From: a virus
Direction: 5' to 3' (one strand)
Virus record (IMG/VR): IMGVR_UViG_3300010148_000114
Coordinates: 1 to 24,357 of that record
DNA: 24,357 bases
The position numbers and the translations under genes were made by a program. Below the pieces are notes generated by a model, which was not told where the DNA came from, made no database searches, and saw only the letters and a list, made by a program, of their open reading frames with translations. Below, in pieces: positions 492 to 15,450 of this stretch (positions are counted from its first letter, which is position 1; each line of letters opens with the position of its first letter).

Positions 492-726
492 TGCCATACA
501 ACAGTTTGGATTTCCAATTGTTGCTATGGTTGGACTTGGATACTTTGTATATTATGTGTGGTTAACAATTACAAAAGTAATACAACCAGCAATAAAAAGT
601 ATGCACTTTACCCTGATAAAACTAATAGACCAGATTCGTATGCTTGATAACGATATGATTCGTTTACAGCAAAAGGTAAACACCGTTTTACAGATGAAAG
701 AGAATGAACGAAAGAAAGATAAATAA
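475..726 (+). CDS. Small one-pass membrane protein, holin-like, paralogue of the previous gene
   Basis: The 83-residue product has one N-terminal membrane segment (about residues 11-34) followed by a helical, highly charged tail ending in a Lys/Glu cluster. The NDMIRLQQKV stretch matches the equivalent region of the upstream paralogue. The start ATG lies 17 bases inside the upstream gene, preceded by a purine-rich GGACGGAAAG. Two related small membrane proteins in tandem could be a holin pair or a holin and antiholin, or subunits of one hetero-oligomer. The next gene (csgF) begins within its 3' end. Function is inferred only from layout. Confidence 0.7.
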   Translation: MSGVIDAIQQFGFPIVAMVGLGYFVYYVWLTITKVIQPAIKSMHFTLIKLIDQIRMLDNDMIRLQQKVNTVLQMKENERKKDK

Positions 727-1234
727 CCGACTCTCTAATGTAGTAGTAGGTACTATACTTATATTGATGAGTATTATTTTTATTGCAGAATTAAATGCAA
801 CAGAAATAGTACACAAGTTTTCTAACCCTAGTTTTAGTGGAATCAATCAATCTGCACATTATTTAACAATAGATGAGCAAGAAAGAACTCGTAAAGAAAA
901 AATTAGAGCAGACGCTCAAGAAGCATTAGAAGATGCTCAAAGAGAAGCAGATAATACAACACTTGCTAAGTTCCTCAGAAACTTAGAATCAAGGATATAT
1001 TCAACACTTGCAAAAGATATATCTGAATCCTTATTTAACTATGACAACCCCGCCACTTCTGAAAATCCAATTTATGGAGAAATAGAACTAGAAGGCAATA
1101 TTATTCAATGGTTAAATAACGGCATAACAATCACTCTTACCATTATAGAGATGGCAGATGGAGTAGAAATTTCTAGAACTACAATAACAATACCAGTTGG
1201 AAGTTTCGGTGGTTGTGTTGTAGACTGTGGTTAA
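704..1234 (+). CDS. csgF: CsgF-like curli assembly/transport factor
   Basis: This 176-residue exported protein matches the CsgF layout. It has an N-terminal hydrophobic signal segment (about 12-30, likely cleavage near NA/TE at 32-33), then the family signature FSNPSFSG (39-46), which in E. coli CsgF (FRNPNFGG) plugs into the CsgG pore. A charged helix follows (about 55-83). The C-terminal part has the CsgF pattern of a long helix and a beta-strand domain (NLESRIYSTL, then ITLTIIEMADG and TTITIPV). In curli systems CsgF works at the cell surface with CsgG to couple nucleation to secretion. The immediately downstream gene is csgG. Unlike E. coli CsgF as I recall it, this protein ends in a CX3C pair (Cys171, Cys175). 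The first ATG is chosen because the later Met22 would cut into the signal segment. Confidence 0.87.
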   Translation: MNERKINNRLSNVVVGTILILMSIIFIAELNATEIVHKFSNPSFSGINQSAHYLTIDEQERTRKEKIRADAQEALEDAQREADNTTLAKFLRNLESRIYSTLAKDISESLFNYDNPATSENPIYGEIELEGNIIQWLNNGITITLTIIEMADGVEISRTTITIPVGSFGGCVVDCG

Positions 1235-2057
1235 ATATTTAGTAATCGCATTATTATTACAAGGCTGCGCAAGTATAGGCATGCAACAATATCATTCAAA
1301 CTGCACAGACGGATTGCTATGTGTAGAAGGCCCAGTACTAGAGCCTAGTACAACAAAACAACTTTTAGATTTACCAACACCCAACCAAAAAACTGTGGTC
1401 GCAGTTTACGCATTTCCAGATTTAACAGGACAAAGAAAATCAAGCGATAATATTGCAAGTTTTAGTACTGCTGTTACACAAGGAGCAGAACACATATTAA
1501 TTGAAGCACTTCGTGATGCCGGTAGAGGTGACTGGTTTGCAGTTGTTGAAAGAAGTGGATTAGACCATGTTACAAAAGAAAGACAACTAGTAAGAAGTAC
1601 TTTTGAAAGCTACAATAGAGGTGCAGACGGTAAAACAATACTAAAACCACTAATATATGCAGGAATGTTAATAGAAGGCGGTATAATTGCATATGATACA
1701 AATTTAAAAACAGGCGGTAATGGTGCAAGATATCTAGGTATAGGTATGAAGAATCAGTATCGTGAGGATAAAGTAACTGTCGTCCTTAGAGCTGTGCTAG
1801 TGCAAACTGGTGAAGTACTCTTAAATGTAACAGCTACAAAAACGATTTTATCTACTGGGGGTGGAATGGACACGTTTCGTTTTATAGAAATGGGAACAGA
1901 GTTAGTTGAACTTGAAAGTGGATATTCAGAAAACGAGGCAGTTGGATACGCCGTGCGTGCCGCTATAGAAGCAGGTGTGTATGGTTTAGTTATGCAGGGC
2001 CTTGAAAAAGAAGTTTGGGATTTTGATTATTCCAAACTGAGAGAGGAAGAGAAATGA
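1227..2057 (+). CDS. csgG: CsgG-like curli secretion channel, outer-membrane lipoprotein
   Basis: The 276-residue protein is a clear CsgG. It starts with a lipoprotein signal (LLLQGC, acylated Cys14) and carries the family landmarks FSTAV (79-83), GARYLGIG (167-173), an LRAVLVQTGEVL strand (187-198), TKTILS (204-209), FRFIE (217-221) and SENEAV (234-239). CsgG forms a nonameric beta-barrel pore in the outer membrane that exports unfolded curli subunits. Length equals the E. coli protein within a few residues. By my alignment, the constriction residue Phe56 of E. coli is kept (Phe79). Asn55 is replaced by Ser78, and Tyr51 falls at Asp74 beside a one-residue insertion. Translation probably starts at the GTG overlapping the csgF stop. 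There is a CX5C pair near the N-terminus (Cys26, Cys32). Confidence 0.95.
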   Translation: MVKYLVIALLLQGCASIGMQQYHSNCTDGLLCVEGPVLEPSTTKQLLDLPTPNQKTVVAVYAFPDLTGQRKSSDNIASFSTAVTQGAEHILIEALRDAGRGDWFAVVERSGLDHVTKERQLVRSTFESYNRGADGKTILKPLIYAGMLIEGGIIAYDTNLKTGGNGARYLGIGMKNQYREDKVTVVLRAVLVQTGEVLLNVTATKTILSTGGGMDTFRFIEMGTELVELESGYSENEAVGYAVRAAIEAGVYGLVMQGLEKEVWDFDYSKLREEEK

Positions 2058-2731
2058 GAAAGATACTAGGACTATTCGCGATATGTCTATCTTTTGGAAC
2101 ATTTGCAGCAAATAATGATATTTATATCACTCAGACTGGTACAGGACTTACCTTGACAATTGACCAAATAGGTGCTAGTAACACCGTTGGTACTTCATCA
2201 AGTAGAGTAACCTTGTCAGGTACTTCTATGACTGTAGATATTGACCAGATTGGAGATAGTAACTCCTTTCTTGCTAGTATACTACAAGGTAATTCATCAA
2301 GTTGGACTTGGCTAAATACAGGTGATAGTAATACAGGAACTTTTACTGTTGGTGGAACAGGCGACGTAGCAAACTCAGACTTTGACTACAGCGCAACTGG
2401 TGACAGCAACATATTTACTTGGACACAAGGTGCGGCTGCTACAGCTACTGGAGGTAACCAAGATTTTACAATCACTGGTACTTCTAATGAGTACACAGGT
2501 ACTTGTGAGGTAGTTGGTTGTATAAATGCCTGGACTATTAGTGGAAATAGTAATGACATTACTACTACACAAACAGGTTCAGCCGACCACCAGATAACAG
2601 CATCGTTAACTGGTAATTCAAATACTGTAACTATTGACCAAACTGATACTGCATCAACAAATGTTGTGAATTTAATTTCAACAACAACAAATGGAACAAT
2701 AGACGTTGACCAATGCGCTTCTGGCTGTTAA
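2054..2731 (+). CDS. Curlin-repeat secreted protein, first copy (CsgA/CsgB-like)
   Basis: This 225-residue protein has a cleavable signal peptide (about residues 1-19, cleavage near FAA/NN) and then about eight imperfect units of roughly 22 residues. Each carries a G-x-SN turn, as in GASNT, GDSNS, GDSNT, GDSNI, GTSNE, GNSND and GNSNT, often preceded by IDQIG or a similar strand. This is the Gln/Asn/Gly curlin beta-solenoid pattern, so it is probably an amyloid fibre subunit or nucleator exported through CsgG. The repeats are more degenerate than in CsgA, and Ser/Thr-rich. Four cysteines (151, 156, 221, 225) are unusual for curlins; the last pair forms CASGC at the C-terminus. An ATGA overlap with csgG and a GGAAGAG site set the start. 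Confidence 0.88.
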   Translation: MRKILGLFAICLSFGTFAANNDIYITQTGTGLTLTIDQIGASNTVGTSSSRVTLSGTSMTVDIDQIGDSNSFLASILQGNSSSWTWLNTGDSNTGTFTVGGTGDVANSDFDYSATGDSNIFTWTQGAAATATGGNQDFTITGTSNEYTGTCEVVGCINAWTISGNSNDITTTQTGSADHQITASLTGNSNTVTIDQTDTASTNVVNLISTTTNGTIDVDQCASGC

Positions 2732-3819
2732 TATTTTTTATAGGAACAATCAGTGCGTCCGAAATAGGAGGAATATCTGAGATAAAAGGAAACGGAGAGA
2801 TAACTAGAGCAGACTCTAGTGACGCACTCACCGCAGAACTAAACTCAGATATTTTCTCTTATGATGATGTAAGAACAGGCAAAGGAAGACTAGCAATACA
2901 GTTTCTAGATGACTCTGTAGTAAAACTTACAGAACACTCAAAACTCATTATAGATGAATATATTTTTGACCCAGACCCAAACAAAAGCAAAATGGCTCTT
3001 AACATGGCTTCTGGAACTGCTCGTTTTATTACTGGCAAACTTGGAAGGATTAACAAGCAAAATATTTCTATAAAAACACCAACAGCTACGATAGGTATTC
3101 GTGGCACAGATTTTACAACTACTGTAGATGAATTAGGAAGAAGTTTAGTTATACTACTTCCAGATGAAGACGGAACCTCATCAGGAGAAATAACCGTAAC
3201 AACAGCATCTGGAGTAGAGATACTAAATGAACCTTTTCAGGCTACAATGGTATCAGCGTGGGAAACACCACCAACAAGACCAGTAACCCTGGCAAATATG
3301 ACTCTCGGGTTGATTGACAATATGTTAATTGTTAGTAGGCCTGAAGAAGTCAATGAAGCAGTAGAAGAGCAACAAACAGGAGTGTCACCTACTGCAGAAC
3401 TAGATAAAGATTTCTTTGAAGATGCACCAGATTTAGACTGTGATGCATTAGTTGAAGAATGTGACGAAGAAGAAAAAGAAATCACAAGATTAGACATAGA
3501 TTTATTATCTATAGACTTACTAGTAGATTTATTAGCATTAGTAGAAACAGCTAGTAAGAAAGCAAAAAATCAACAAGCTACTACTATTAGTAATGTAGAG
3601 TTAACAGGTATTATTGCAGGGTTTGACCCAGTATACCAAACTTTTACATTTGTTGAAGATGGACTTATTTATTTCGTACATGAAGGAGTAAATAGTTACG
3701 ATATAGGAATAGATACAGACACAGGAACATATTTATATATAAATAATGCAGGAGTAATAATGGAGGTAGAAATAAATGGTGCGGGCGATAATGTTATCAT
3801 TATTAATCAGTCTCCCTAG
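2713..3819 (+). CDS. Secreted FecR-domain protein with a curlin-like C-terminal motif
   Basis: The 368-residue protein has a short signal peptide (about 1-16). A FecR domain follows (about 48-135), recognised from GRLAIQFLDDSVVKL, the middle strand ending ASGTARFITG, and the signature TPTATIGIRGTDF. The rest is an acidic linker rich in Asp/Glu (about 200-265, with a CX6C pair), a helical segment, and a beta-rich C-terminus ending GAGDNVIIINQSP, which reads like one curlin repeat. In bacteria, FecR domains occur in periplasmic sensors and regulators and often sit beside CHASE2 cyclases; one lies two genes downstream here. It could therefore link fibre assembly to the cyclase, which is inference. 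The start lies inside the end of the curlin gene, and the stop lies inside the next one. Confidence 0.85.
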   Translation: MRFWLLIFFIGTISASEIGGISEIKGNGEITRADSSDALTAELNSDIFSYDDVRTGKGRLAIQFLDDSVVKLTEHSKLIIDEYIFDPDPNKSKMALNMASGTARFITGKLGRINKQNISIKTPTATIGIRGTDFTTTVDELGRSLVILLPDEDGTSSGEITVTTASGVEILNEPFQATMVSAWETPPTRPVTLANMTLGLIDNMLIVSRPEEVNEAVEEQQTGVSPTAELDKDFFEDAPDLDCDALVEECDEEEKEITRLDIDLLSIDLLVDLLALVETASKKAKNQQATTISNVELTGIIAGFDPVYQTFTFVEDGLIYFVHEGVNSYDIGIDTDTGTYLYINNAGVIMEVEINGAGDNVIIINQSP

Positions 3820-4576
3820 TTTTGCAGGAGATAATAGTCTTACTATAAAAACTAAAGGAACTGGTACTAGCATTACTGCTAAACAAGTAGGTAACGGTAA
3901 TGAAGGATACATACTATGCGGAGCAAACTCTAGCGGTTCACTACCCGGCACTTCCTACGTTTCACATACTTGTGGAAGCGCAACACTCAGTACTACAGTT
4001 ATAGGTAATAGTAATAATACTAGACTTTATACTGTATGGTCAAATAATATGGATAATAATTATACTATTACTATAGATGGAAATGATAATTTTGCTTGGC
4101 TAGACCAAGATGAAGACGATAATACTTCTACAATTACTCAGACAGGAGATGATAATCACGCAGAGCAGTTAGGTTCTGGAGATGATAATACATATTCAAT
4201 AACTCAAACAGGAGATGATAAGTATGCTAAGATATTTACTTTTGGAGATAACTCCGCTTTTACTATTAATCAGTATGGTAGTGGAGAACATAATACTTAC
4301 ATCTACAATCACTCAAACGCAGACAATAATACTGCTTCAGTAACACAGTATGGTACAGGAAATAAAGATGCAGATATATTCTTTTACAGCGATGCCGATA
4401 ATACAACTGTGAACTTAACACAATATGGAGCAGGGGCTCATGTAGCAAATATGAAATTTTATACTGACGATTATAATTTAAATGTTACTCAATCAGGAAC
4501 AACTAATCAAGCGTATACTGCAACTTTTAACTGTACATCAAACTGTACAAAGACTATAACTATAACACAAGAATGA
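3776..4576 (+). CDS. Curlin-repeat secreted protein, second copy
   Basis: This 266-residue product has a signal peptide (about 1-17, LLISLPSFAG) and then Gly/Asn/Asp-rich curlin repeats. The clearest units carry ITQTGDDN, ITQTGDD, INQYGSG, VTQYGTG, LTQYGAG and VTQSG, spaced about 20-24 residues apart. The I-x-Q-x-G turns are better preserved than in the first copy, so this may be the main fibre subunit, and the first copy a nucleator or minor subunit. Cysteines occur as one pair in the first third and as a CX3C pair (CTSNC) near the end. A strong GGAGG site lies 9 bases before the ATG, itself inside the 3' end of the FecR gene, suggesting high, coupled translation. Aspartate is abundant, so the repeats may bind calcium. 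Confidence 0.88.
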   Translation: MVRAIMLSLLISLPSFAGDNSLTIKTKGTGTSITAKQVGNGNEGYILCGANSSGSLPGTSYVSHTCGSATLSTTVIGNSNNTRLYTVWSNNMDNNYTITIDGNDNFAWLDQDEDDNTSTITQTGDDNHAEQLGSGDDNTYSITQTGDDKYAKIFTFGDNSAFTINQYGSGEHNTYIYNHSNADNNTASVTQYGTGNKDADIFFYSDADNTTVNLTQYGAGAHVANMKFYTDDYNLNVTQSGTTNQAYTATFNCTSNCTKTITITQE

Positions 4577-4959
4577 TAGAATACGCATTAATAGCAGACT
4601 TTAACTTTGCACAAATAAAAGAAGATTCAGCAAGAATAGATTCATATTTAGAAAGTCAAAAAATAGAGTTTGTAATAGATAACTCAATAGATTATGAAAT
4701 AAAACAATATATTCTTTGGAATATAGCAGACCTTTATACAACACATAGAGCTATGGAAACAACTTCTGCAAAAGAACAAAATCCTTTTTTACCGAGTAAT
4801 CCTGAACTTCATGAACTATTAATTCATAAAGCAACGTCTACTATTTCCATAGAACTATTAGGGTGGTTTGATGAAGAACTAAACGAAAATTTATTTACTT
4901 TAAATAGTTTAGGTTGGATAGTTGTATTTAATAATTTAGATGTACTATATGATAAATAA
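4573..4959 (+). CDS. Small protein of unknown function with a DUF5658-like motif
   Basis: The 128-residue protein overlaps the second curlin gene by ATGA and ends inside the cyclase gene, so it is embedded in this cluster. Residues 48-74 contain ADLYTTH and then EQNPFLP, followed by a lysine about 12 residues later. This resembles the D-x-x-TT ... E-x-NP ... K pattern of small DUF5658-type membrane proteins. That assignment is tentative, as the hydrophobic segments here are weak; the best candidates are about 45-56 and 106-125. The first 40 residues are acidic and soluble-looking. No catalytic role can be read from it. Confidence 0.65.
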   Translation: MIEYALIADFNFAQIKEDSARIDSYLESQKIEFVIDNSIDYEIKQYILWNIADLYTTHRAMETTSAKEQNPFLPSNPELHELLIHKATSTISIELLGWFDEELNENLFTLNSLGWIVVFNNLDVLYDK

Positions 4960-6733
4960 AATACTCACTTTAATTTTTGCACTAGGATTATTTATATGGA
5001 ATCCTTATCCAATGCAAATTCTAGAGCTCAAAACATTTGATTGGTTAATGTTATCACAACCAAAAATTCAAAATGAAAACATACTTATAGTAGACTTAGA
5101 TGAAGAAATAGTAGAGGCCTATGGAGGATATCCTTTGCCACGTTCTTTATTTGCGTCTATGATAGAAAAAACAGAAGGCATTCCTGGATTTACTATATTA
5201 ATGCCTGACCCAGATTTACGAGATAAAAATAACGACACTACATTAGCGATGTCTTTATTAAATAATCCAACTGTGTTAGCTTATGCAGCTTCAACACAAG
5301 CAACTGAAAAAGGTGCTCATGTGGGTACAGCTCAGTTAGGAGAAGACCCAATACCATGGCTATTAAACTATCCAGGAATTTTAAGACAACTACCAATTTT
5401 ACAAGTAAACGCAGACGGCGTAGGATTAATAAACTCCTCCCCAGAAGTAGACGGCGTCGTAAGACGTATGCCCGTAGTCGTCGCAAGCAAAGATAAAATA
5501 TTTCCTTCTTTTAGTTTAGAGATGTTAAGACTTGCAGTTGGTGACCCCAGCTATCAAATTAAGACTAATCAGGTAGGAGTAGAATGGTTAAGAATACCAA
5601 ACTATCCACTTATAAATACAGATTCAAATGGAAGAATATGGATAAATACTAATATAAATTTTTACAAACAAACTGCAGCTGAATATATGGCAGACCCAAT
5701 ACCAGCGCCCTTTGTTATATTTGGAGTTACAGCAGAAGGAGTAGTTAACCCTGTTCCAACTGCCTCAGGAGCAAAGTATCCTCATGAGATACAAGCGAAT
5801 GTACTCCACAATTTAATTGAAGGTACCGCACCCTCAATTCCCAACTGGAGTAGTGGAGCAGAGCTGGGAGCTGCAGTCTTGGCTTTGCTCTTTCTTTTAC
5901 TTACAGCAAGTAGAATCTATTTAAGTATACCTGCTCTACTCTTAGTTATTGGAGGTTCAATATATGGAGCCATATATGCTTTTGAATCTTCTTATTTGTT
6001 TGACGTTTCTGGGATTATTTTAATCTCCTTTTTATTCTGGAGTATTGAAAGTTTCCGTAATTTTGCAAAGACCTATTTTGAGAAATTACAAATTAAACAA
6101 CAATTTGGAACGTATGTAAGTCCTGACTTAGTAAAAAAATTACAGGACGACCCAACATTACTGAGATTGGGCGGGGAGACAAAACGACTCACTTTTCTTT
6201 TTTCTGATATTAGAGGATTCACACCAATCTCAGAAAAATATCAAAAAAATCCTCAAGGACTCACACAACTTATTAACAGATTCCTTGATAACCAAACACA
6301 AATCATACTAAAACATGGAGGCACCATTGATAAATATATGGGAGACTGTATCATGGCATTTTGGGGTGCACCACTTGATGACGAAGACCAAGTTAATAAT
6401 GCCACAAAGGCTGTCTTAGAAATGAGACTAGCACTAGGAGAATTAAATGAAAGACTCAGAGAAGAAGGCTTGGATACGATTAATACAGGAGCGGGAATCA
6501 ACACAGGACTCTGCGTGGTCGGTAACTTTGGTTCTAGCAATCGTTTTGATTACTCTGTACTTGGGGATAGCGTTAATCTAGCAGCCCGTTTAGAGTCAAG
6601 TTGTAAAGATTATGATACCGATTTAATTATTTCAGAATATAGTTTACTTGATGATTATGATTACGAGTTTCTAGACGAAGTAAAGGTCAAAGGCAAGTCA
6701 GAGCCCGTTAAAATCTATACCATACGAAAATAG
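4940..6733 (+). CDS. CHASE2-domain receptor-type class III adenylate cyclase
   Basis: The 597-residue protein has an N-terminal membrane segment (about 7-20), an extracytoplasmic CHASE2 sensor domain (about 28-295, with ILIVDLDEE near its start), three membrane segments (about 308-325, 327-346, 353-371), and a cytoplasmic class III nucleotidyl cyclase domain (about 412-597). The catalytic set looks complete: metal-binding Asp423 (FSDIRGF) and Asp469 (KYMGD), adenine-selecting Lys465, Ser539 at the Asp/Thr position, and transition-state Asn546 and Arg550 (VNLAAR). The Lys and Ser favour ATP, so it should make cAMP in response to a periplasmic or membrane signal. Start is at 4940, or possibly the Met codon at 4949. 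Such a receptor is unexpected in a phage and completes a FecR-CHASE2 pairing. Confidence 0.92.
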   Translation: MYYMINKILTLIFALGLFIWNPYPMQILELKTFDWLMLSQPKIQNENILIVDLDEEIVEAYGGYPLPRSLFASMIEKTEGIPGFTILMPDPDLRDKNNDTTLAMSLLNNPTVLAYAASTQATEKGAHVGTAQLGEDPIPWLLNYPGILRQLPILQVNADGVGLINSSPEVDGVVRRMPVVVASKDKIFPSFSLEMLRLAVGDPSYQIKTNQVGVEWLRIPNYPLINTDSNGRIWINTNINFYKQTAAEYMADPIPAPFVIFGVTAEGVVNPVPTASGAKYPHEIQANVLHNLIEGTAPSIPNWSSGAELGAAVLALLFLLLTASRIYLSIPALLLVIGGSIYGAIYAFESSYLFDVSGIILISFLFWSIESFRNFAKTYFEKLQIKQQFGTYVSPDLVKKLQDDPTLLRLGGETKRLTFLFSDIRGFTPISEKYQKNPQGLTQLINRFLDNQTQIILKHGGTIDKYMGDCIMAFWGAPLDDEDQVNNATKAVLEMRLALGELNERLREEGLDTINTGAGINTGLCVVGNFGSSNRFDYSVLGDSVNLAARLESSCKDYDTDLIISEYSLLDDYDYEFLDEVKVKGKSEPVKIYTIRK

Positions 6734-6736
6734 GTC

Positions 6737-6765
6737 TTGACAATTTTGCTTAGTTTTGATATAAT
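6737..6765 (+). promoter_or_regulatory. Consensus sigma70 promoter for the small-gene region
   Basis: A perfect -35 box TTGACA (6737-6742) and a perfect -10 box TATAAT (6760-6765) are separated by the ideal 17 bases. The promoter starts four bases after the cyclase stop and lies in one of the few real intergenic gaps. Transcription should begin near 6772. The 5' leader contains a small GAAGA/TCTTC hairpin (6777-6790), then an AAAGGAA ribosome site ahead of the ATG at 6810. A perfect match suggests expression by host RNA polymerase without a phage activator. Confidence 0.9.
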
Positions 6766-7177: not shown

Positions 7178-7329
7178 ATACTTTTCAAGCAGCATTTCAA
7201 AAAGCACTAGATAATAGCGAGGGAGACCCTCAACTAGCACAAACAATTAAACACTCATTAGGGAAAAAGTGGAAAAGAAAAAAAGTCACGAAGAAAGATG
7301 GAAGATATGTCAAAAGTGTCCGCACTTAG
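7174..7329 (+). CDS. Small basic hypothetical protein (51 residues)
   Basis: An ATG overlapping the preceding TGA opens a 51-residue frame. It has an acidic-to-neutral helical first half and a second half rich in Lys/Arg (KKWKRKKVTKKDGRY). It is too short for routine gene calling but sits in a coupled run of small genes. The last 60 bases overlap the GTG-started gene at 7269. The lysine-rich end suggests nucleic acid binding, which is an inference from composition only. Confidence 0.6.
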   Translation: MNTFQAAFQKALDNSEGDPQLAQTIKHSLGKKWKRKKVTKKDGRYVKSVRT

Positions 7330-7430
7330 AAAAGCGCTGGAAGTTTTGTAAAGTCTGTCTTTGTTTTATGCCCCTCAAGACTAAGTTGCGATGGGCAGAG
7401 TGTCCTGACGAACCCCCTCGTTGGACATAG
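7269..7430 (+). CDS. Cys-rich, probable zinc-binding small protein with a GTG start
   Basis: Starting from GTG at 7269, behind an AGGGAAAAA purine stretch, a 53-residue frame runs to TAG at 7428-7430. It contains six cysteines: ICQKC (14, 17), FCKVCLC (27, 30, 32) and ECP (45), with conserved-looking Trp and Lys between them. Spaced CxxC pairs followed by CP and Trp are typical of small zinc-ribbon proteins seen in many tailed phages. The stop is followed at once by the AGGAG site of the next gene, and the 3' 100 bases are otherwise unused, which supports it being real. Its role is unknown; a structural zinc protein or a DNA/protein adaptor is possible. Confidence 0.68.
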   Translation: MEKKKSHEERWKICQKCPHLEKRWKFCKVCLCFMPLKTKLRWAECPDEPPRWT

Positions 7431-7440
7431 GAGCACTACT

Positions 7441-7575
7441 ATGGCATTAACTGCTAAGCAAAAGAAACTACCTAAAGCTTTACAACAGGCTATTTTAAAA
7501 AGCCAAAAGAAAAAAGGCATGGGTAAGAAAAAGAAAAAGAAAAAAGGTGGCAAAAAGAGACGGTCAAGAGGTTAA
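7441..7575 (+). CDS. Lysine-rich small protein (44 residues)
   Basis: A clear AGGAG (7430-7434) precedes the ATG at 7441. The frame encodes 44 residues: a helical first half (LTAKQKKLPKALQQAILK) followed by an almost pure Lys/Gly/Arg tail from about residue 23 on, including seven consecutive lysines. The extreme charge points to binding of DNA, RNA or a polyanion. The layout recurs in other genes of this region. The 3' end overlaps the GTG start of the next gene. Confidence 0.7.
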   Translation: MALTAKQKKLPKALQQAILKSQKKKGMGKKKKKKKGGKKRRSRG

Positions 7576-7948
7576 TATCATACCCGAGTACATAACTTGG
7601 TTATGGTACTTTAGAAAGATAAGTAAAGTTTGTCCTTGGTCGTATAAATCATTTATAGCAGGGACTACAAGAATAATTCCCTTTGATGAGAAAGAAATGT
7701 TACTTTCTGAACAAAACTGGGAAAAACAACCCTGGGAGGTGATAGTCTACCTGATGGGTGATGACCTAACTCTTGAAGAGATTGATGATATAGTGGCATT
7801 TAGAAATGAAAGCCAAGAGAAATGCGAATACTTATGGTCTCACCCATCTTTTTCTAAAGGTGGAAAGAATCAAACACATGTGCCTGTAATCATACAGCAA
7901 GATAGAGCAAAACTAATGGAATTAAGACATGCCCGTAAGAAAAGTTAA
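7547..7948 (+). CDS. Hypothetical protein, 133 residues, GTG start
   Basis: This frame begins at a GTG inside the 3' end of the Lys-rich gene and encodes 133 residues. It differs from its neighbours: near neutral to acidic and rich in Trp, Tyr and Phe in the first half (ITWLWYFRKISKVCPWSY). A central acidic stretch (GDDLTLEEIDDI) and a basic C-terminus follow. It looks like a folded cytoplasmic alpha/beta protein, possibly a minor head or packaging factor from position. There is no ATG start before mid-gene, which supports GTG. Not recognised. Confidence 0.65.
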   Translation: MAKRDGQEVNIIPEYITWLWYFRKISKVCPWSYKSFIAGTTRIIPFDEKEMLLSEQNWEKQPWEVIVYLMGDDLTLEEIDDIVAFRNESQEKCEYLWSHPSFSKGGKNQTHVPVIIQQDRAKLMELRHARKKS

Positions 7949-8093
7949 AGGCGGATATAGATTCGGTAAAACAGGAAAGATTCATAGAACTAAGAAAGCT
8001 GCTGACAGACAAGCAAGAGCAATATACGCATCAGGTTATGGTAAGAAAAAAACGAGACCCAAGAAAAGGAACAGGAAAAAAACCAAAAGGTAG
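7929..8093 (+). CDS. Small basic conserved-type phage protein (54 residues)
   Basis: An ATG at 7929, overlapping the end of the previous gene, opens a 54-residue frame to TAG at 8091-8093. It begins MPVRKVKGGYRFGKTGK and continues with a helix containing AADRQARAIYASGYGKKK. This glycine-tyrosine hairpin plus AIYASGY helix is a pattern I recall from small proteins in many marine and cyanobacterial phages. The Lys/Arg-rich last 15 residues overlap the next gene in another frame. Role unknown; the charge suggests nucleic acid contact. Confidence 0.7.
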   Translation: MPVRKVKGGYRFGKTGKIHRTKKAADRQARAIYASGYGKKKTRPKKRNRKKTKR

Positions 8094-8352
8094 CGGCAGA
8101 AGACTTTATACTGACGAGAATCCAAAAGATACTGTCAGAATTAAGTTTGCTACTGCAAAAGACGCACGAGCTACAGTACGAAAAGTTAAAAGAGTTCGTA
8201 AATCTTACGCAAGAAAAATACAAATACTAACAGTAGGTGAACAAAGAGCAAGAGTGATGGGAAAGAAAACAGTCGCATCAATCTTCAAGTCTGCGAAGGC
8301 AGGATTAAGGAGAGCACATGGTCGTAAGAAGAAGAAAAAGAAAGGCCGCTAA
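8038..8352 (+). CDS. Basic conserved-type phage protein (104 residues)
   Basis: The 104-residue protein has disordered Lys/Arg-rich ends and a folded-looking centre (about 30-90). The centre reads IKFATAKDARATVRKVK, then ARKIQILTVGEQRARVMGK, and is the part most likely conserved among phages. The C-terminus carries six consecutive lysines. The start lies 56 bases inside the previous gene, and the end overlaps the next by 35 bases. It may bind DNA or act in assembly; no enzymatic motif is visible. The Lys-rich ends resemble ribosomal proteins only in composition. Confidence 0.72.
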   Translation: MVRKKRDPRKGTGKKPKGSGRRLYTDENPKDTVRIKFATAKDARATVRKVKRVRKSYARKIQILTVGEQRARVMGKKTVASIFKSAKAGLRRAHGRKKKKKKGR

Positions 8353-8512
8353 AAAGAGACCACTACCAACAAACCCAACTCTTTATGCTAGAGTAAAAGC
8401 TGAGGCAAAGAGAAAGTTTAAAGTATACCCTTCCGCATATGCAAATGGGTGGTTAGTAAGAACATACAAAAAACGTGGCGGACGTTTTAGAATGGGAGTA
8501 AAGAAACGATGA
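8318..8512 (+). CDS. Basic small protein with a PSAYANGWLV motif (DUF-type)
   Basis: This 64-residue protein has an Arg/Lys-rich start. A helix with LYARVKAEAKRKFKVYPSAY follows, then ANGWLVRTYKKRGGRFR. The YPSAYANGWLV...YKKRGG signature recurs in small proteins of phages and giant viruses; I connect it tentatively with the DUF5872/DUF6321-type families. A GGAGAG site precedes the ATG. The gene belongs to the coupled cluster of basic proteins. Specific function unknown. Confidence 0.72.
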   Translation: MVVRRRKRKAAKKRPLPTNPTLYARVKAEAKRKFKVYPSAYANGWLVRTYKKRGGRFRMGVKKR

Positions 8513-8640
8513 TAGATTATATCAAAGAAACCTTCCTTCAGTTTTGGAATATTCTTTCGGGAAAGGATAAAAACTGGGACGGCTCTGTTGACATCAAAGA
8601 TAAAATGATAGAAGCAGAAGAAAAAGTAAAAAATGGCTAA
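8509..8640 (+). CDS. EF-hand-like microprotein (43 residues)
   Basis: The ATG overlaps the previous stop (ATGA) and opens a 43-residue acidic frame with GGGAG about 10 bases upstream. Residues 20-31 read DKNWDGSVDIKD. Asp1, Asn3, Asp5, Gly6, a hydrophobic at 8, Asp9 and Asp12 fit an EF-hand or dockerin-type calcium loop. It is preceded by an aromatic helix (YIKETFLQFWNIL) and followed by a charged helix, so it could be a complete single EF-hand unit. It is the only clearly acidic protein among strongly basic neighbours. Calcium binding is inferred from the motif. Confidence 0.65.
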   Translation: MIDYIKETFLQFWNILSGKDKNWDGSVDIKDKMIEAEEKVKNG

Positions 8641-8935
8641 GTATCAAGGCGGACTAACTAAATGGTTTAAAGAAGGTTGGGTAGATATATCTAGACCTAG
8701 AAAAGGCGGTGGTTATCAGCCTTGTGGCAGAAAATCTGCAAGAAAAAGCAAAAGCGGATATCCGAAATGTGTCCCTGCTAGTAAAGCTGCAAGAATGACT
8801 AAATCACAAATAAAGTCAGCAGTTAGAAGAAAAAGAGCAGCTGGTAATCCAGGAGGAAAACCAAGAAATGTTGCTACTTTTGCTAAGAGGGGTAGAAAGA
8901 AAAAAAGAACTACCAGAAGCAGACGCAAAAGATAA
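8633..8935 (+). CDS. Basic conserved-type phage protein with a GLTKWFKEGWVDI motif
   Basis: This 100-residue basic protein opens with GLTKWFKEGWVDISRP, followed by a Gly-rich turn, PCGRKSARKS, and PKCVPASKAARMTKSQIKS. The basic tail (VRRKRAAGNPGGKP) closes with a run of Lys/Arg. The first half, with its W/D motif and two cysteines, is a recognisable small domain shared by phage and large-virus proteins (DUF5872/DUF6321-type in my memory; exact number unsure). Overlap with the preceding gene is eight bases. Probably nucleic acid binding; role unknown. Confidence 0.75.
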   Translation: MAKYQGGLTKWFKEGWVDISRPRKGGGYQPCGRKSARKSKSGYPKCVPASKAARMTKSQIKSAVRRKRAAGNPGGKPRNVATFAKRGRKKKRTTRSRRKR

Positions 8936-8951
8936 TCCTAAAAAGGAAACC

Positions 8952-9128
8952 ATGAAAGAAAACTTAGTATATGAAATACTTGGTGTTGTGTCCATGTCAA
9001 TAAGACTAAAAAGAACAATAGAAGATAAGATTTCTTGGGGGATTCAGCTTCGTGAGTTGCTTCAACTCCCAAAAAACAAAGCTAACAGTAATATCGTTAG
9101 AGAATATTTAAAAGATGGCACTCAATAA
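8952..9128 (+). CDS. Small hypothetical protein (58 residues)
   Basis: The frame extends upstream to 8868 in the same phase, but the ATG at 8952 has an AAAAGGAAACC site just before it, and the extension would lie inside the previous gene. The 58-residue product is helical (ENLVYEILGVVSMSIRLKR, then a second helix) with mixed charge, unlike the surrounding Lys-rich proteins. It could be a small winged-helix or subunit-type protein. The next start overlaps its 3' end. Not recognised. Confidence 0.62.
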   Translation: MKENLVYEILGVVSMSIRLKRTIEDKISWGIQLRELLQLPKNKANSNIVREYLKDGTQ

Positions 9129-9315
9129 ACGAAAACACTCAGCATTTTTACGAAATAAACATGTTTATAAATCACCAGGCCCTGCTAAAAAAGCAGCGAC
9201 TAAACTGGGATTAAAAGGCATACATGCTCATGGCAGAGGAAAAGCCAAGAGATTTATGCCAGGAAGCTCTCATAAAGCATATAGAAATGCATTGAGAAAG
9301 AAAAGGAGAAAATAA
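9115..9315 (+). CDS. Basic small protein (66 residues)
   Basis: This 66-residue protein is rich in Lys, Arg, Ala and His, with a central PGPAKKAATKLGLKGIHAHG and MPGSSHKAYRNAL. It ends in a Lys/Arg cluster. Its stop abuts the next ATG directly (TAA then ATG). The repeated AKKAAxK/KGI pattern suggests a small fold that binds phosphate backbones, which is inference. Part of the basic cluster upstream of the terminase. Confidence 0.68.
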   Translation: MALNKRKHSAFLRNKHVYKSPGPAKKAATKLGLKGIHAHGRGKAKRFMPGSSHKAYRNALRKKRRK

Positions 9316-9558
9316 ATGGCAGGTAAATTTTTAAGCGGACCAAGTATTCACAATACTCAAAAAATCCGTAAGCATGTTCTCAAAAGAGGACTAACAAGAG
9401 ATATGAATGCAGCTGCAGGAACTTTAGTAAATACTAAAAATCCTAATGGCATAGAGGCATTTAGATATGCTACTGCACCAAAGGGCATAGGCCCACGTTT
9501 TGGCAAAACTAAAAATCCACCAAAAGCAAGATTTCCCGGAAGGAGAAGAAGAAGATAG
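9316..9558 (+). CDS. Basic small protein (80 residues)
   Basis: The 80-residue protein starts right after the previous stop and contains a moderately hydrophilic core (GPSIHNTQKIRKHVLKRG, then a segment with GIEAFRYATAPKGIG). It ends in a Pro/Lys/Arg tail with five final arginines. The purine-rich end of the previous gene (AGGAGAA) gives the ribosome site. Role unknown. A 75-base gap follows (9559-9633) with no convincing gene or promoter. Confidence 0.68.
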   Translation: MAGKFLSGPSIHNTQKIRKHVLKRGLTRDMNAAAGTLVNTKNPNGIEAFRYATAPKGIGPRFGKTKNPPKARFPGRRRRR

Positions 9559-9633
9559 ATATTTATAATAAATTTCATACTTTAATGAAATCAGGTAGAT
9601 TACCTAAAGTTTGTAAGATAGCAGGAATAAATA

Positions 9634-9963
9634 ATGGCACTAACAAAAGCAGAAAAAGCAAGATTAAAAAGAGCAGGGTTATCAAAGTTAAACAAACCAA
9701 AAAGAACACCTAATCATAGAACTAAAAAAGCTGTTGTTGCTACAAGAGTTGGTGGCAAGGTAAAAATTATTCGTTTTGGAGCACAAGGCATGGGGCATAA
9801 CTATAGCCCCGAGGCCAGAAGAAGTTTCAAGGCTAGACATAGGAAGAATATTGCAAAAGGCAGGTCTTCCGCAGCTTGGTGGGCAAATAAAGTCTTCTGG
9901 GCTGGAAAAGGTGGTAGTACAAAAAGACCACCAAAATCACAAAAACGTAAATTCGGAAAGTAG
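9634..9963 (+). CDS. Basic conserved-type phage protein with a SPEARRSFKARH motif
   Basis: The 109-residue protein has a Lys-rich N-terminus, a beta segment (VGGKVKIIRFGAQG), then GHNYSPEARRSFKARHRKNI, AKGRSSAAWWANKVFW, and a Lys-rich end. The combination of SPEAR, FKARH and AAWWANKVxW is familiar to me from proteins just upstream of terminase genes in marine phages. I cannot name a validated function. The consistent site next to the terminase suggests a packaging or DNA-associated role. A GCAGGAATAAAT site precedes the ATG. Confidence 0.75.
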   Translation: MALTKAEKARLKRAGLSKLNKPKRTPNHRTKKAVVATRVGGKVKIIRFGAQGMGHNYSPEARRSFKARHRKNIAKGRSSAAWWANKVFWAGKGGSTKRPPKSQKRKFGK

Positions 9964-9964
9964 T

Positions 9965-10210
9965 ATGGCACAAACACCAAAAGTAATAGATAGAAGAGTA
10001 GCATGGCTTGATGGAGTATCTGTAGAAGCAATAGAAATACTTGCAAAAATACAACATGAAGCCATTAACGGAGAAACTTTATCAGAGCACCAGAAAAATA
10101 TGACTGAGCTTTGTAGTGGTTACTTATATTTACTAAGACTATCTAAAGATTACGGACTTTTTGATTCAGACGACCCATTTAACTTATTTGAGAAAGAGAC
10201 CCTACATTGA
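9965..10210 (+). CDS. Small protein before TerL, possible small terminase subunit
   Basis: Start at ATG 9965, directly after the previous stop. A longer in-frame form from 9776 would lie entirely inside the previous gene. The 81-residue product is neutral to acidic and helical (SVEAIEILAKIQHEAINGE, then a long helix to YLYLLRL), with a short acidic C-terminus. Its position directly upstream of TerL is the usual place of a small terminase subunit, but it is short for one and shows no clear helix-turn-helix, so this is only a positional guess. Its stop overlaps the TerL TTG start. Confidence 0.6.
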   Translation: MAQTPKVIDRRVAWLDGVSVEAIEILAKIQHEAINGETLSEHQKNMTELCSGYLYLLRLSKDYGLFDSDDPFNLFEKETLH

Positions 10211-11508
10211 TAGAAATTAGTCGTTCAGATATAGTTTCAGACTATTTGATGAACTATGAAACAGAAGAAAGATTTATTAAACTACCTATTGAAGGGTATC
10301 TTGACTTATTGGGTATAGAACCTAACAGCTCACAATCAGCATTAATCAATGCAATCAATAATACAAAATATCGTTTTGTCTGCGCAGCAGTCGCTCGTCG
10401 TCAAGGCAAAACTTATATTTCAAACATAATCGGACAACTTATTTGTCTAGTTCCTAATAGTCATGTATTACTCATGTCACCTAACTACTCATTATCACAA
10501 ATATCATTTGACTTACAGAGAAATCTCATAAAGCATTTTGATTTAGAAGTTACAAGAGATAATGCAAAAGACAAAGTAATAGAACTATCAAATCAATCAA
10601 CAATTCGTATGGGTTCAATTAATCAGGTTGACTCCGTTGTTGGTAGAAGCTACGACTTAATTATCTTTGATGAAGCAGCACTAACAGACGGTAGAGACGC
10701 TTTCAATGTAGCACTCAGACCTACACTAGATAAAGATAACTCTAAAGCTATATTTATATCTACTCCAAGGGGTAGAAATAATTACTTTGCAGAATTTTAT
10801 CATCGTGGGTACAACGATGAATTTCCAGAATGGTGCAGTATAAAAGCTACTTGGCATGAAAATCCAAGAGTATCAGAACAAGATATTAAAGAAGCAAAAA
10901 AGACAATGTCGGAGTCAGAATTTAACCAAGAATATTTAGCAGACTTTAATGTATTTGAAGGTCAAATTTGGTCATTTAATTATGAACAATGCACATCAAA
11001 TTTATCAGAACTTGATACTAGAAACATGGACGTATTCGCAGGACTTGATGTTGGTTACAAAGACCCAACAGCTTTCTGTGTTATTGCGTATGATTGGGAC
11101 GAAAAGAAATACTATGTATTAGATGAATACTTAGACGCAGAAAGAACTACAGAACAACACGCAATACAAATACAAAAGTTAATAAAAAAATATGATATAG
11201 ATTATATTTATATTGATTCTGCTGCTCAACAAACAAGATATGACTTTGCACAAAACTATGATATTAGTACTATAAATGCAAAGAAATCTGTACTTGACGG
11301 AATAGGTCATGTAGCTGGTATAGTAGACAATGATTCTCTTATAGTAAATCAAACTTGCAAGCATGTCACTACATCACTAGACCAGTATCAATGGGATCCA
11401 AACCCAAATCTTATGAAAGAGAGACCAAAACATGATATGTCATCTCATATGGCAGATGCTTTACGATATGCGTTATATTCATTTGAAACTAGTGTCACCT
11501 CGTTCTAG
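10207..11508 (+). CDS. terL: Terminase large subunit (ATPase plus nuclease)
   Basis: The 433-residue protein is a full-length TerL. The ATPase part has an adenine/Walker A-type motif VARRQGKT (62-69), Walker B LIIFDEA (151-157, Asp155 and Glu156) and the coupling motif STPRG (185-189). The RNase H-like nuclease domain shows three metal-binding acids: Asp281 (GLDVGYKD), Asp337 (YIDSAA) and Asp417 (HMADALRYAL). It translocates DNA into the prohead and cuts it, with the portal encoded two genes on. The start appears to be TTG at 10207, overlapping the previous TGA; a shorter form from Met15 (10249) is possible. Family level assignment is firm; packaging strategy cannot be told from this alone. 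Confidence 0.95.
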   Translation: MIEISRSDIVSDYLMNYETEERFIKLPIEGYLDLLGIEPNSSQSALINAINNTKYRFVCAAVARRQGKTYISNIIGQLICLVPNSHVLLMSPNYSLSQISFDLQRNLIKHFDLEVTRDNAKDKVIELSNQSTIRMGSINQVDSVVGRSYDLIIFDEAALTDGRDAFNVALRPTLDKDNSKAIFISTPRGRNNYFAEFYHRGYNDEFPEWCSIKATWHENPRVSEQDIKEAKKTMSESEFNQEYLADFNVFEGQIWSFNYEQCTSNLSELDTRNMDVFAGLDVGYKDPTAFCVIAYDWDEKKYYVLDEYLDAERTTEQHAIQIQKLIKKYDIDYIYIDSAAQQTRYDFAQNYDISTINAKKSVLDGIGHVAGIVDNDSLIVNQTCKHVTTSLDQYQWDPNPNLMKERPKHDMSSHMADALRYALYSFETSVTSF

Positions 11509-11530: not shown

Positions 11531-11560
11531 TTGACATGTGGTGTGCCTTTTTGGTATAAT
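11531..11560 (+). promoter_or_regulatory. Consensus sigma70 promoter for the head genes
   Basis: TTGACA (11531-11536) and TATAAT (11555-11560) are both perfect and separated by 18 bases, lying in the 71-base gap after terL. Transcription should start near 11567. This rules out the upstream in-frame GTG at 11538 for the next gene and fixes its start at ATG 11580. It would drive the HNH, portal and capsid genes, needed at high level. Confidence 0.88.
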
Positions 11561-13137: not shown

Positions 13138-13397
13138 TGACAAAAAAATCAAAAGCTTTAAAAATGATAGCAGAATATATGGCAAAGAAAGGAAAAGTTC
13201 TTACACTAGCTGAATATAATGCTGAAACAGACAAGCCCATTAGAACAGCAATACTAAAAAGAACATTTGGTGGCTCTTGGGCAAGAATGGAACAAATGTT
13301 AGAACATAATTATCCAGAACTATATGTGCCTACACCAGCACCAGCACCTAAAAAGACAGTTGCAAAAGCTAAAGTAGGAAAGAAAGATGGAAAATAA
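13137..13397 (+). CDS. Small protein resembling a homing-endonuclease-associated repeat
   Basis: The 86-residue protein has a small helical domain (1-60). Its segment reads AKKGKVLTLAEYNAETDKPI, then ILKRTFGGSWARMEQML. The spacing of the helix, the LTxxEY motif and the RTFGGSWxxME motif resembles the HNR repeat that accompanies homing endonucleases and other DNA binders. A Pro/Ala linker (PTPAPAPKK) and basic tail follow. It starts at the last base of the portal gene and overlaps the capsid gene by 11 bases. Nucleic acid binding is likely but not shown; the function in the head operon is unknown. Confidence 0.65.
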   Translation: MTKKSKALKMIAEYMAKKGKVLTLAEYNAETDKPIRTAILKRTFGGSWARMEQMLEHNYPELYVPTPAPAPKKTVAKAKVGKKDGK

Positions 13398-15450
13398 AAT
13401 ATATCATTGGACCAGTAATTTTAAAACTCTAGGAGAGTCAGAAGACGGTGGAGTAGAAATTAAAGGTTCAGCAAGTACAAACGCACTAGATAGAGCAGGA
13501 GATATAATCAATACAGATGCATGGACAAAAGGAGGATTAGAGAACTTTAAGAATAATCCTATTATTTTATTCAATCATGATTATAACAAGCCTATTGGTA
13601 GAGCAAAAAATTTACAAGTTACTGACAACGGTTTAGAGATATCAGCAAAGATATCTAAAGCTGCTGGTGAAGTAACACAATTAATTAAAGACGGTGTCCT
13701 TGGAGCTTTTTCTGTTGGTTTCAAAGTCAAGGACGCTGATTACATGACTGAAACTGACGGATATAAGATAAAGGATGCAGAGCTTTTTGAAGTATCTGTA
13801 GTATCTGTGCCTTGCAACCAAAATGCAACTTTTGGATTAGCAAAATCATTTGATTCTATGGAAGATTACAACAAGTATAAGCAAACTTTTTACACGGCTA
13901 ACTTAAACGATTCAGCAGACGCTGTTGAAGTTGAGCAGCCAAGTCAGGCGCAAGCCAAAGAAATGGAGACAAATATGTCAAACGAAAAACAATCTCCTGA
14001 GAGCAATCCTGAGTTCAATATTGAATCATATGCTAAAGAAGCAGCTGAAAAAGCTGTAGCTTCTTATGCAATGAAGCAAGCTGAACTAAAGGCTGCTGAA
14101 CAGAAGGCTGCTGAAGAAGCTGTTGAAAAGGCTGCTAAAGAAGCTGAAGTTCAAAAAGCCTCCGAGGAAGCAAAACAGGAAGAGCAAAAAACTATAGTCC
14201 AAGCTGGGCTATCAGGTGCTGAAAAGCTAATGTCAGATGTTGAGACACGAGTAAATGAAAAGCATGAAGATTTAGAGAAAGTTGTAAAAGAACTTGAATC
14301 TCAGTTATCTGAGAAGTCTGAAGAAATCATGAATATTCGTGAGTCAAAAAGAATGTTCACAGACAGAGGCAACGGCAACTGGAAAAAAGACTTTGAAAAT
14401 GATGTTCTTGATGCAAAATTCTTAGGATTAGCAACAGGTAAAGGATATGACACAGACTACGGTAAGAGTGTTATGGAGAAAGTTAACGCACATTCAGGCG
14501 TTGGTGTATCTTCAGCAGACTTTGAGCAAGTTGTATCTACAAACATTGAAAGAGATATTCAGAATGAATTAGTATTAGCTCCTCTATTTAGAGAAATTAC
14601 TATGACTTCTGCAAATCAAATTATACCAATCATGCCTGATGCAGGTTATGCAGAATTTACTTCTAACCAAACTGCTAGTGGTTCTTCACCACATGGTAAC
14701 TTGGCCCAAAGAGGTGATGCATACAACCCTGGTTCAGCAGGTGGTATTGATTTAACAGAAAGAACTCTTTCTACTGTTAAACTCATTTCACAATCATTCT
14801 TAGGTAATGAAACAGAAGAAGATGCAATCATGCCAATCTTACCTCTCATCAGAGAATCAATGGTAAGGTCTCATGCAAGAGCTATTGAAAACGCTATCTT
14901 AGCTGGTAACAACTCAGCTAATGGTGTATTCTCATCAGGTTCTTTTGAAGGTTTAATTCAAAAAGCCGCTCAAGATGATAGCTCAGGTACACACGTAACT
15001 GCATCAACAACTGCATTTGCAAGTGAATCTTTAACTGCAGCTAACCTATTAGCTATGAGAAAGAAAATGGGTAAATATGGTATAAATCCAGCTGAAGTAC
15101 TTTATATTGTTAACCAACAAGAGTATTTCAACTTACTAAGCGATGCTGAGTTCCAAGACGCTAACCTAGTTGGCGACATGGCTACTAAGCTATCAGGTGA
15201 AATCGGACAAGTGTTCGGTACAAGAATTCTCGTTTGTGATGAATTCGCAACACCTGCAGTAAGTAAAGTTCATGCTGTAGCAGTATATCCAAGAAACTAT
15301 GTAATGCCAAGATTAAGAGGCGTTACTATTGAATCAGACTACGAAGTAGCAAACCAAAGAAGAGTCCTAGTGGCTTCTCAAAGACTTGGTTTCACTGATT
15401 TAATTGATGGAGCAACAACAGTTCACGCAAGAAGTTACAAAGCTAGCTAA
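13387..15450 (+). CDS. HK97-type prohead protease fused to major capsid protein
   Basis: One 687-residue frame joins two normally separate proteins. Residues 1-150 are a U35/S78-type prohead protease: His64 (FNHDYNKPIGR), Ser109 (GAFSVGFKV) and Glu135 (ELFEVSVVSVPCNQNA) fit the catalytic triad. Residues 197-320 form a Lys/Glu/Ala-rich coiled-coil, which is the scaffold-like delta domain of the capsid protein. From about 330 the HK97 fold follows (QNELVLAPLFREITM, IMPDAG, SHARAIENAIL, YIVNQQEY, YPRNYVMPRL). The protease would remove the delta domain after assembly. An internal ATG with GGAG (see 13965) could yield the capsid part alone. Expression likely starts at the 11531 promoter. Confidence 0.93.
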   Translation: MENKIYHWTSNFKTLGESEDGGVEIKGSASTNALDRAGDIINTDAWTKGGLENFKNNPIILFNHDYNKPIGRAKNLQVTDNGLEISAKISKAAGEVTQLIKDGVLGAFSVGFKVKDADYMTETDGYKIKDAELFEVSVVSVPCNQNATFGLAKSFDSMEDYNKYKQTFYTANLNDSADAVEVEQPSQAQAKEMETNMSNEKQSPESNPEFNIESYAKEAAEKAVASYAMKQAELKAAEQKAAEEAVEKAAKEAEVQKASEEAKQEEQKTIVQAGLSGAEKLMSDVETRVNEKHEDLEKVVKELESQLSEKSEEIMNIRESKRMFTDRGNGNWKKDFENDVLDAKFLGLATGKGYDTDYGKSVMEKVNAHSGVGVSSADFEQVVSTNIERDIQNELVLAPLFREITMTSANQIIPIMPDAGYAEFTSNQTASGSSPHGNLAQRGDAYNPGSAGGIDLTERTLSTVKLISQSFLGNETEEDAIMPILPLIRESMVRSHARAIENAILAGNNSANGVFSSGSFEGLIQKAAQDDSSGTHVTASTTAFASESLTAANLLAMRKKMGKYGINPAEVLYIVNQQEYFNLLSDAEFQDANLVGDMATKLSGEIGQVFGTRILVCDEFATPAVSKVHAVAVYPRNYVMPRLRGVTIESDYEVANQRRVLVASQRLGFTDLIDGATTVHARSYKAS
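13965..13977 (+). promoter_or_regulatory. Internal ribosome binding site and start within the protease-capsid gene
   Basis: GGAG (13965-13968) stands six bases before an in-frame ATG (13975-13977, Met197), at the junction between the protease part and the coiled-coil delta domain. The spacing is ideal. Initiation here would make a 491-residue capsid protein with its own delta domain, alongside the full-length fusion. Confidence 0.55.

Follow-up and report, generated by a model that had tools for sequence, protein, structure and literature searches.

A conserved row of small basic proteins upstream of a phage terminase gene, one of them sharing a domain with prohead proteases

A row of small basic genes precedes the terminase gene

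The DNA analysed here (the window) is a 24,357-base virus record from IMG/VR (IMGVR_UViG_3300010148_000114) in which a phage curli block is followed by small open reading frames (ORFs) and then by a siphophage head/tail operon encoding the terminase large subunit (TerL), an HNH-like protein, portal, a protease-capsid fusion, connectors, tail proteins and a tape measure. We investigated the small ORFs upstream of TerL, where a first-pass annotation had reported a cluster of at least eight Lys/Arg-rich proteins at 7441-9963. Eight such ORFs (b1-b8) are indeed present, all on the plus strand. They encode proteins of 44-109 amino acids (aa) with 25-45% Lys+Arg (K+R), a computed isoelectric point (pI) of about 12 and a net charge of +18 to +34. 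The interval is not wholly basic, because the neutral or acidic ORFs n1, a1 and n2 are interspersed. The row and its borders are as follows; dN/dS is the ratio of non-synonymous to synonymous substitution rates.

7269-7430, plus strand: o0d, a small Cys-rich ORF, four-Cys and ribbon-like, the left border of the cluster; phrog_13558 (2.4e-11); dN/dS 0.15
7441-7575, plus strand: b1, 44 aa, 45% K+R, net charge +20; no family match
7547-7948, plus strand: n1, 133 aa, pI 6.4, not basic; start codon uncertain
7929-8093, plus strand: b2, 54 aa, 43% K+R, net charge +22; phrog_31267 (7.1e-7); profile match in 39 of 190 loci
8038-8352, plus strand: b3, 104 aa, 38% K+R, net charge +34; core QILTVGEQRARVMGK
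8318-8512, plus strand: b4, 64 aa, 38% K+R, net charge +23; core PSAYANGWLV; N-terminal half of DUF5872
8509-8640, plus strand: a1, 43 aa, acidic, pI 4.8, net charge -2; dN/dS 0.11; between the putative DUF5872 halves
8633-8935, plus strand: b5, 100 aa, 34% K+R, net charge +32; core GLTKWFKEGWVDI; putative C-terminal half of DUF5872 with a KWFxxxWVDI module
8952-9128, plus strand: n2, small ORF of 58 aa; no family match
9115-9315, plus strand: b6, 66 aa, 33% K+R, net charge +22; weak resemblance to DUF3721
9316-9558, plus strand: b7, 80 aa, 25% K+R, net charge +18; profile match in 81 of 190 loci
9634-9963, plus strand: b8, 109 aa, 30% K+R, net charge +31; core SPEARRSFKARH; free-standing form of a domain appended to prohead proteases
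9965-10210, plus strand: n3, 81 aa, not basic, just outside the interval, immediately 5' of TerL and overlapping its start
10207-11508, plus strand: TerL; Terminase_6N (6.3e-14), Terminase_6C (9.8e-12), phrog_2 (9.8e-46)

The eight basic ORFs (1887 bp) found in 7401-9999 compare with a mean of 0.3 and a maximum of 2 in 200 dinucleotide shuffles; applied to the whole window, the same ORF caller keeps six of them owing to its overlap filter. Among control phages, HTVC010P has at most one such ORF per 2.55 kb, the first 50 kb of HTVC008M at most one, and P-SSP7 none. Median dN/dS, calculated against up to 80 related loci, is 0.21 for b2, 0.16 for b6, 0.11 for each of b3, b4, b5 and b7, and 0.08 for b8 (for b1 it is 0.04, from five usable pairs only), and the same comparison gives 0.09 for TerL and 0.08 for the portal. 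Because purifying selection is TerL-like and the number of ORFs is beyond that in the shuffles, we conclude that b1-b8 are real genes under selection comparable to that on the terminase.

Including a1, the summed net charge of the set is +200. Arithmetically, about 42 copies of each protein would be enough to balance 10% of the phosphate charge in a 42-kb genome (a size assumed from the longest relative, of 42,357 bases), a calculation that carries no evidence on copy number. No HU, H-NS or histone-type family was found for the basic proteins (Pfam at E ≤ 1 for b1-b8, NCBIfam at E ≤ 0.1 for b2-b8), and no small terminase subunit (TerS) family was found for them in PHROGs.

The row has a fixed core and a variable remainder

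Scanning IMG/VR with b5 identified 385 confirmed relatives and scanning with b3 at least 595 confirmed stretches; the best 80 were used in each case. Because these best loci were retrieved by exact peptides, invariant columns in the resulting alignments are overstated. The search alignments, each with the window protein added, took in 40 of the 40 listed relatives for b8, 58 of 60 for b3, 26 of 38 for b4 and 30 of 40 for b5.

We counted gene order in the 80 b5 loci and the window, 55 of which hold both the o0d left border and TerL. The order b4-b5-b7-b8-TerL is fixed in all 55 (b5 being present by selection). The other genes are found less regularly, a1 in 47 of these sequences, b1 in 38, n1 in 37, b2 and b3 in 33 each, and b6 in 29. 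The interval from o0d to TerL ranges from 1.8 to 4.4 kb and can take up insertions, such as a 176-aa ORF between b7 and b8 in one relative (L056). The row is made up of a fixed core (b4, b5, b7 and b8) and a shuffling remainder, with b1, b2, b3 and b6 optional. Further basic families occur at other loci, one with the motif NPKGFSQK (40 loci) and one with APKGFHWM (20 loci).

The modules are also found apart from this arrangement. In 80 b3-bearing rows, comprising 79 IMG/VR loci and HTVC033P, the one cultured phage in which b3 was found by sequence, b5 is present in 40, b4 in 36 and similarity to TerL in 2. Near 66 more distant b8 loci, b3, b4 and b5 were each found once. Among cultured phages, free b8 is present in HMO-2011 and in a Siovirus roseophage, and b4 and b5 are present in pelagiphage HTVC023P. 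The 25 largest of the 128 families flanking distant b8 include a major head protein family with 7 members and tail fibre families with 4; the 69 flanking ORFs of 18 of the 22 eligible distant b8 loci gave no usable enrichment, and this signal was too weak to be used. The earlier remark that so many basic genes together are uncommon thus agrees with the three control phages, but within this phage group their coexistence is the rule.

A conserved promoter lies at the head of the row

6737-6765, plus strand: extended sigma-70-type promoter TTGACA-17-TATAAT with TG; 12/12 match; 4 nt after the cyclase stop codon

This element occurs in the same place in all 49 sequences with an intact gap between the cyclase gene and o0a (81 were looked at). 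It scores 12/12 in 29 of them and 11/12 in the other 20, always with the TG, and shuffled gaps gave no site at 12/12 and 7 of 980 at 11/12. Between relatives the hexamers stay and the spacer sequence varies, which speaks for promoter function. The element is probably the promoter of the cluster and terminase operon. We infer from strand and spacing that the row and TerL would form one transcript. A second sigma-70-type site matching at 12/12 lies after TerL, at 11531-11560.

b8 resembles a domain appended to prohead proteases

The b8 protein matches phrog_7595 (4.2e-27) and also touches phrog_220, 'minor head protein and DNA pilot'. It has no Pfam match at E ≤ 1 and no Peptidase_S78 or S78_2 domain. 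Profile comparison with hhalign nevertheless relates it to proteases of Vibrio phage ICP1 and an Aeromonas phage, with probabilities of 97.4 and 98.0. In the ICP1 capsid protease (Gp125), the peptidase occupies residues 37-160 and the b8-like module is C-terminal (about 183-263), whereas in the 307-aa Aeromonas phage protein the module is on the N-terminal side (74-152) and Peptidase_S78_2 follows at 176-287. These opposite domain orders suggest that the module was fused to a protease twice independently. With the Aeromonas module as query, tblastn found matches in 116 phage records, of which 90 belong to Vibrio phages.

The AlphaFold2 model of b8 (predicted local distance difference test score, pLDDT, 81; predicted template modelling score, pTM, 0.70) is a small fold with a predicted beta-hairpin plus helices. 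Foldseek searches of viral models with it returned an XkdF-type protein (1.3e-4), ICP1 ORF125 (1.1e-3) and a b8-like fold in the marseillevirus Tunisvirus (E 5.6e-3). Among solved structures, the Foldseek and VIA matches of the b8 and b3 models are weak or involve common folds. b8 has no match in the PDB at E ≤ 0.001 (best Z 2.5 over 46 residues, root-mean-square deviation 3.9), and its profile finds nothing better than E 0.067 there.

The charge of the module differs sharply between its two settings. It is +8 to +29 in each of the 198 free ORFs (some counted more than once because the stretches retrieved overlap) and 0 to +2 in all seven protease-fusion rows (two from ICP1, five from Aeromonas phages), so charge goes with the free form. 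Four other long ORFs that contain the module are at +16 to +26, and their extra parts may be mis-called starts or ends. Our reading of this pattern is that the b8 fold serves the procapsid interior or a protein contact and that the module acquires basic charge where it stands alone.

By profile, b8 is the same domain as that in the XkdF-type proteases of ICP1 (Gp125) and Aeromonas phage vB_AceP_PAc, and in the case of ICP1 the predicted fold agrees. It differs from them in being a separate protein without a protease domain and in having a charge of +31 instead of about 0. The window phage encodes a protease of its own as a fusion with its capsid protein. The main new result of this analysis is the link through the protease fusions, which makes b8 a free-standing basic version of a fold appended to prohead proteases.

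Two further possible relatives of b8 were noticed. HTVC008M gp131 (L207:7012-7413) is a b8-like protein encoded directly 3' of the cytidyltransferase gene gp130. DUF6321 proteins, as at L091:5713-5970, may be distant relatives of the C-terminal part of b8 (hhalign probability 86.8, E 4e-6).

b4 and b5 resemble two halves of DUF5872

The b4 protein matches positions 1-39 of the 116 in PF19197 (DUF5872) at 3.6e-10, and its 40.9 bits are over the curated cut-off of 27.5. The b5 protein, which matches phrog_23735 at 1.4e-25, aligns with positions 51-98 of PF19197 under that cut-off (E 0.0028, 18.6 bits), but its counterpart in the T7-like cyanophage P-SCSP2 matches DUF5872 over the cut-off at 5e-14. 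Judged by these profiles, b4 and b5 are two halves of DUF5872 that are split into two genes here. The resemblance covers the first third of the family for b4 and, weakly, the last part for b5; the halves are not in one protein here, and the acidic 43-aa ORF a1 lies between their genes. DUF5872 is known from giant algal viruses, and a DUF5872 protein is listed in CpV-BQ1.

In P-SCSP2 the scaffold and major capsid genes flank the counterparts of b5 and b4 together with a gene for a DUF6321 protein. The PSAYAN (b4) and DUF6321 modules are joined in one protein in S-BM3, P-SSM2, Syn9, P-TIM68 and S-SM1, and in S-BM3, P-SSM2, Syn9 and P-TIM68, the four of these phages searched for it, this protein also contains the WVDI (b5) module; the b5 matches are weak in P-SSM2, Syn9 and P-TIM68 (E 3e-4 to 4e-3). 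The joined gene is labelled T4-GC119 in P-SSM2, S-SM1 and S-BM3, where it lies beside or near the small terminase gene, as does its counterpart in Syn9, gp114. The cyanomyophage T4-GC119 proteins thus have modules in common with the row, but there they form one long protein and here they are encoded by separate genes. T4-GC119 is not labelled a virion protein in those phages. DUF6321 is not mentioned in the literature that we searched.

b3, b6 and b7

The conserved core of b3, GTGKKPKGSGRRLYTDENPKDTV..IQILTVGEQRA.VMGK, includes 48 invariant columns in 59 sequences, a number overstated by the way in which the loci were retrieved. Its model (pLDDT 73, pTM 0.58) has a predicted three-helix C-terminal part, the best structural match of which is a designed helical repeat (Z 9.3, root-mean-square deviation 3.1 over 75 residues), a common arrangement. 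The b3 profile finds nothing better than E 0.05 among solved structures, and a match to La-related protein 7 is not significant. In P-TIM68, the sole carrier among the cyanomyophages searched, a b3-like domain (E 4.1e-18) forms part of a 374-aa ORF, the second gene beyond the one for the major head protein (L206:5820-6941).

The fold search with b3 also listed an uncultured-virus protein named cytidyltransferase-like (E 4.6e-3). A cytidylyltransferase (T4-GC190) is reported in virions by PMC3037559. A link from b3 to virions through T4-GC190 was considered and dropped, because the b3 profile matched nothing in HTVC008M, P-SSM2, Syn9 or S-BM3.

The resemblance of b6 to PF12518 (DUF3721) is under the curated cut-off (1.3e-5; 25.3 bits against 27). 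b7 has no Pfam match, and its best PHROG match is at E 0.37.

Possible functions of the row

The explanation that we prefer, tentatively and short of even confidence, is that the row encodes small DNA-binding proteins that are expressed together with the head genes and act inside or at the procapsid as DNA is packaged. In favour of a role in packaging or in the head are the fixed place of the row before TerL, the common promoter, the homology of b8 to the prohead-protease domain, the basic charge of the module in its free form, the position of the P-SCSP2 counterparts between scaffold and capsid genes, that of T4-GC119 or its counterpart beside or near TerS, and the annotated head, neck or packaging genes in 9 of the 14 regions viewed in cultured phages with modules. 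The row would then be the promoter-proximal block of a marine siphophage head and packaging operon, and most of its small single-module proteins would bind DNA by charge and function inside or at the procapsid as it fills with DNA. The best-placed member is b8. Appended to the protease in ICP1-like and Aeromonas phages, its fold would ride into the procapsid there; because b8 is free and strongly basic here, its likely job would be to bind incoming DNA inside the prohead or at the portal. At this stage b3, and b4 together with b5, probably bind nucleic acid as well. That the row is transcribed as one operon, that its products are located in the procapsid and bind DNA, and that all members have one task in common are what we infer in this scheme.

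The first-pass annotation had proposed a packaging or nucleoid-like system. Its packaging side is favoured to the extent just described, but the 66 distant b8 loci indicate that this is not one system everywhere.

Several observations weigh against a role in the procapsid. Outside this phage group the modules travel apart, and b8 is rarely near b3, b4 or b5. In 9 of the 14 regions viewed in cultured phages with modules, a terminase, portal, capsid, scaffold or neck gene is annotated; the other 5 lack any head or packaging annotation, and chance alone would often place such a gene within 8-12 kb of a 40-kb phage. The fused form of b8 is uncharged, so DNA binding is not a basic property of the fold. 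The conserved sigma-70 promoter would suit early genes equally well. T4-GC119 is annotated as hypothetical in S-SM1, where its neighbour SSM1_109 is annotated as structural; virion mass spectrometry of S-SM1 is reported to have found 41 proteins. In the literature searched, we found no virion proteome of a carrier of the free proteins. Finally, according to PMC3281028, evidence for a large contribution of basic proteins to neutralizing phage double-stranded DNA is lacking.

The basic proteins could instead be takeover factors, made early and strongly from a host-like promoter and coating the host nucleoid, ribosomes or RNA polymerase. The near-perfect extended promoter in 49 of 49 sequences is compatible with this, as are a charge that suits RNA or ribosome binding, the way in which b1, b2, b3 and b6 come, go and shuffle between relatives, and the statement, in a pelagiphage study (PMC12753301), that all early HTVC027P genes are of unknown function. 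We nevertheless consider host takeover unlikely, as the row is on the same strand as TerL and the head genes and tightly spaced with them, the homologue of b8 is a head protein, and b4, b5, b7 and b8 are about as conserved as TerL, a level that host-specific takeover genes do not usually reach. To us it seems improbable to a similar degree that the proteins are packaging cofactors which stay out of the virion, either resembling TerS or presenting DNA, and which bind concatemers next to the terminase. Such cofactors would fit a cluster directly upstream of TerL in a window in which no small terminase subunit was recognized among the proteins scanned, the position of T4-GC119 or its counterpart beside or near TerS in four cyanomyophages, and the missing structural label of T4-GC119 in S-SM1. 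However, the b8 fold is fused to a protease, which acts inside the prohead, and not to a terminase; n3 is a better-placed TerS candidate; and the modules are no substitute for TerS, since some of their carriers have an annotated TerS too.

More doubtful again is the idea that the genes have no common function and mark a hot spot of unrelated small mobile genes between the curli block and the terminase. The occurrence of single modules elsewhere and the variable length of the interval with its differing insertions, as in L056, would be expected of such a site, but not the order of b4, b5, b7 and b8 kept in 55 of 55 sequences, the co-occurrence of b3, b4 and b5 in phages without TerL similarity (among the 80 b3-bearing rows) or the extreme charge common to all members. 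The least probable explanation, to which we give very little weight, is that the proteins bind RNA or act as antiterminators for late transcription and are encoded where the late operon begins. The promoter-proximal place and the high charge agree with it, but it would need eight unrelated families; the family searches with the basic proteins found no RNA-binding family, and the window has no Rfam match.

Relation to known systems

The preferred procapsid role recalls the internal (core) proteins of T4 (IPI-IPIII, gp67, gp68 and Alt) in idea only, as no sequence relation was found. In T4, small proteins co-assemble with the prohead core and some are injected with the DNA, according to PMC9958956. 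Chlorovirus PBCV-1 offers a likeness of theme, that of basic proteins accompanying the genome: according to PMC3281028, which contrasts PBCV-1 with phages, several basic proteins are packaged with its DNA. The resemblance is thematic, and we do not claim homology of b1-b8 to the named PBCV-1 proteins. No protamine-like phage proteins were found in the literature searched.

A bolder and distinctly improbable extension is that some marine tailed phages possess a 'head chromatin' kit of shuffling small basic proteins that are loaded into the prohead through protease-attached folds, bind the packaged genome and share modules with giant viruses. DUF5872 and a b8-like fold (in Tunisvirus) are common to the row and eukaryotic giant viruses, some of which pack their DNA with basic proteins.

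The row is real and conserved, and its parts fall into known families to which no function is assigned; what is new is the lead from the homology between b8 and a protease domain. DUF5872, DUF6321, phrog_7595, phrog_23735 and the b3 family are frequent in marine viruses without having an assigned function, and the protease fusions provide a concrete lead that the b8 fold belongs inside the procapsid. ICP1 is tractable in the laboratory and a procapsid assembly assay has been published for it (PMC10945586), which makes the role of the b8 fold testable now. Should the free basic forms turn out to be packaged with DNA, this would matter for the accepted view, as given in PMC3281028, that tailed phages hold their genome without basic proteins.

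Neighbouring genes

The position of n3 is that of a small terminase subunit, making it a candidate TerS; it has no family match, including none to a TerS family in PHROGs, although TerS is often too divergent to be recognized. Further downstream, at 13387-15450, a prohead protease (Peptidase_S78) and the major capsid protein are encoded in one 687-aa ORF. An Rfam scan of the window gave no match, and NCBIfam and tRNA scans gave nothing useful. Upstream of the row lies the curli block.

704-6733: phage curli block with CsgF, CsgG, two curlin-repeat proteins, FecR and a CHASE2-guanylate cyclase

The components of curli (type VIII secretion system, T8SS) occur together here, with matches for CsgF (1.6e-11), CsgG (5.6e-54) and the curlin repeats (1e-4 and 8.5e-16). 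Curli blocks of the same make-up have been described in pelagiphages (PMC9599517), and one is present in the HTVC008M annotation. Directly before csgF are two adjoining small membrane-like ORFs (198-491 and 475-726), both of which match phrog_18771.

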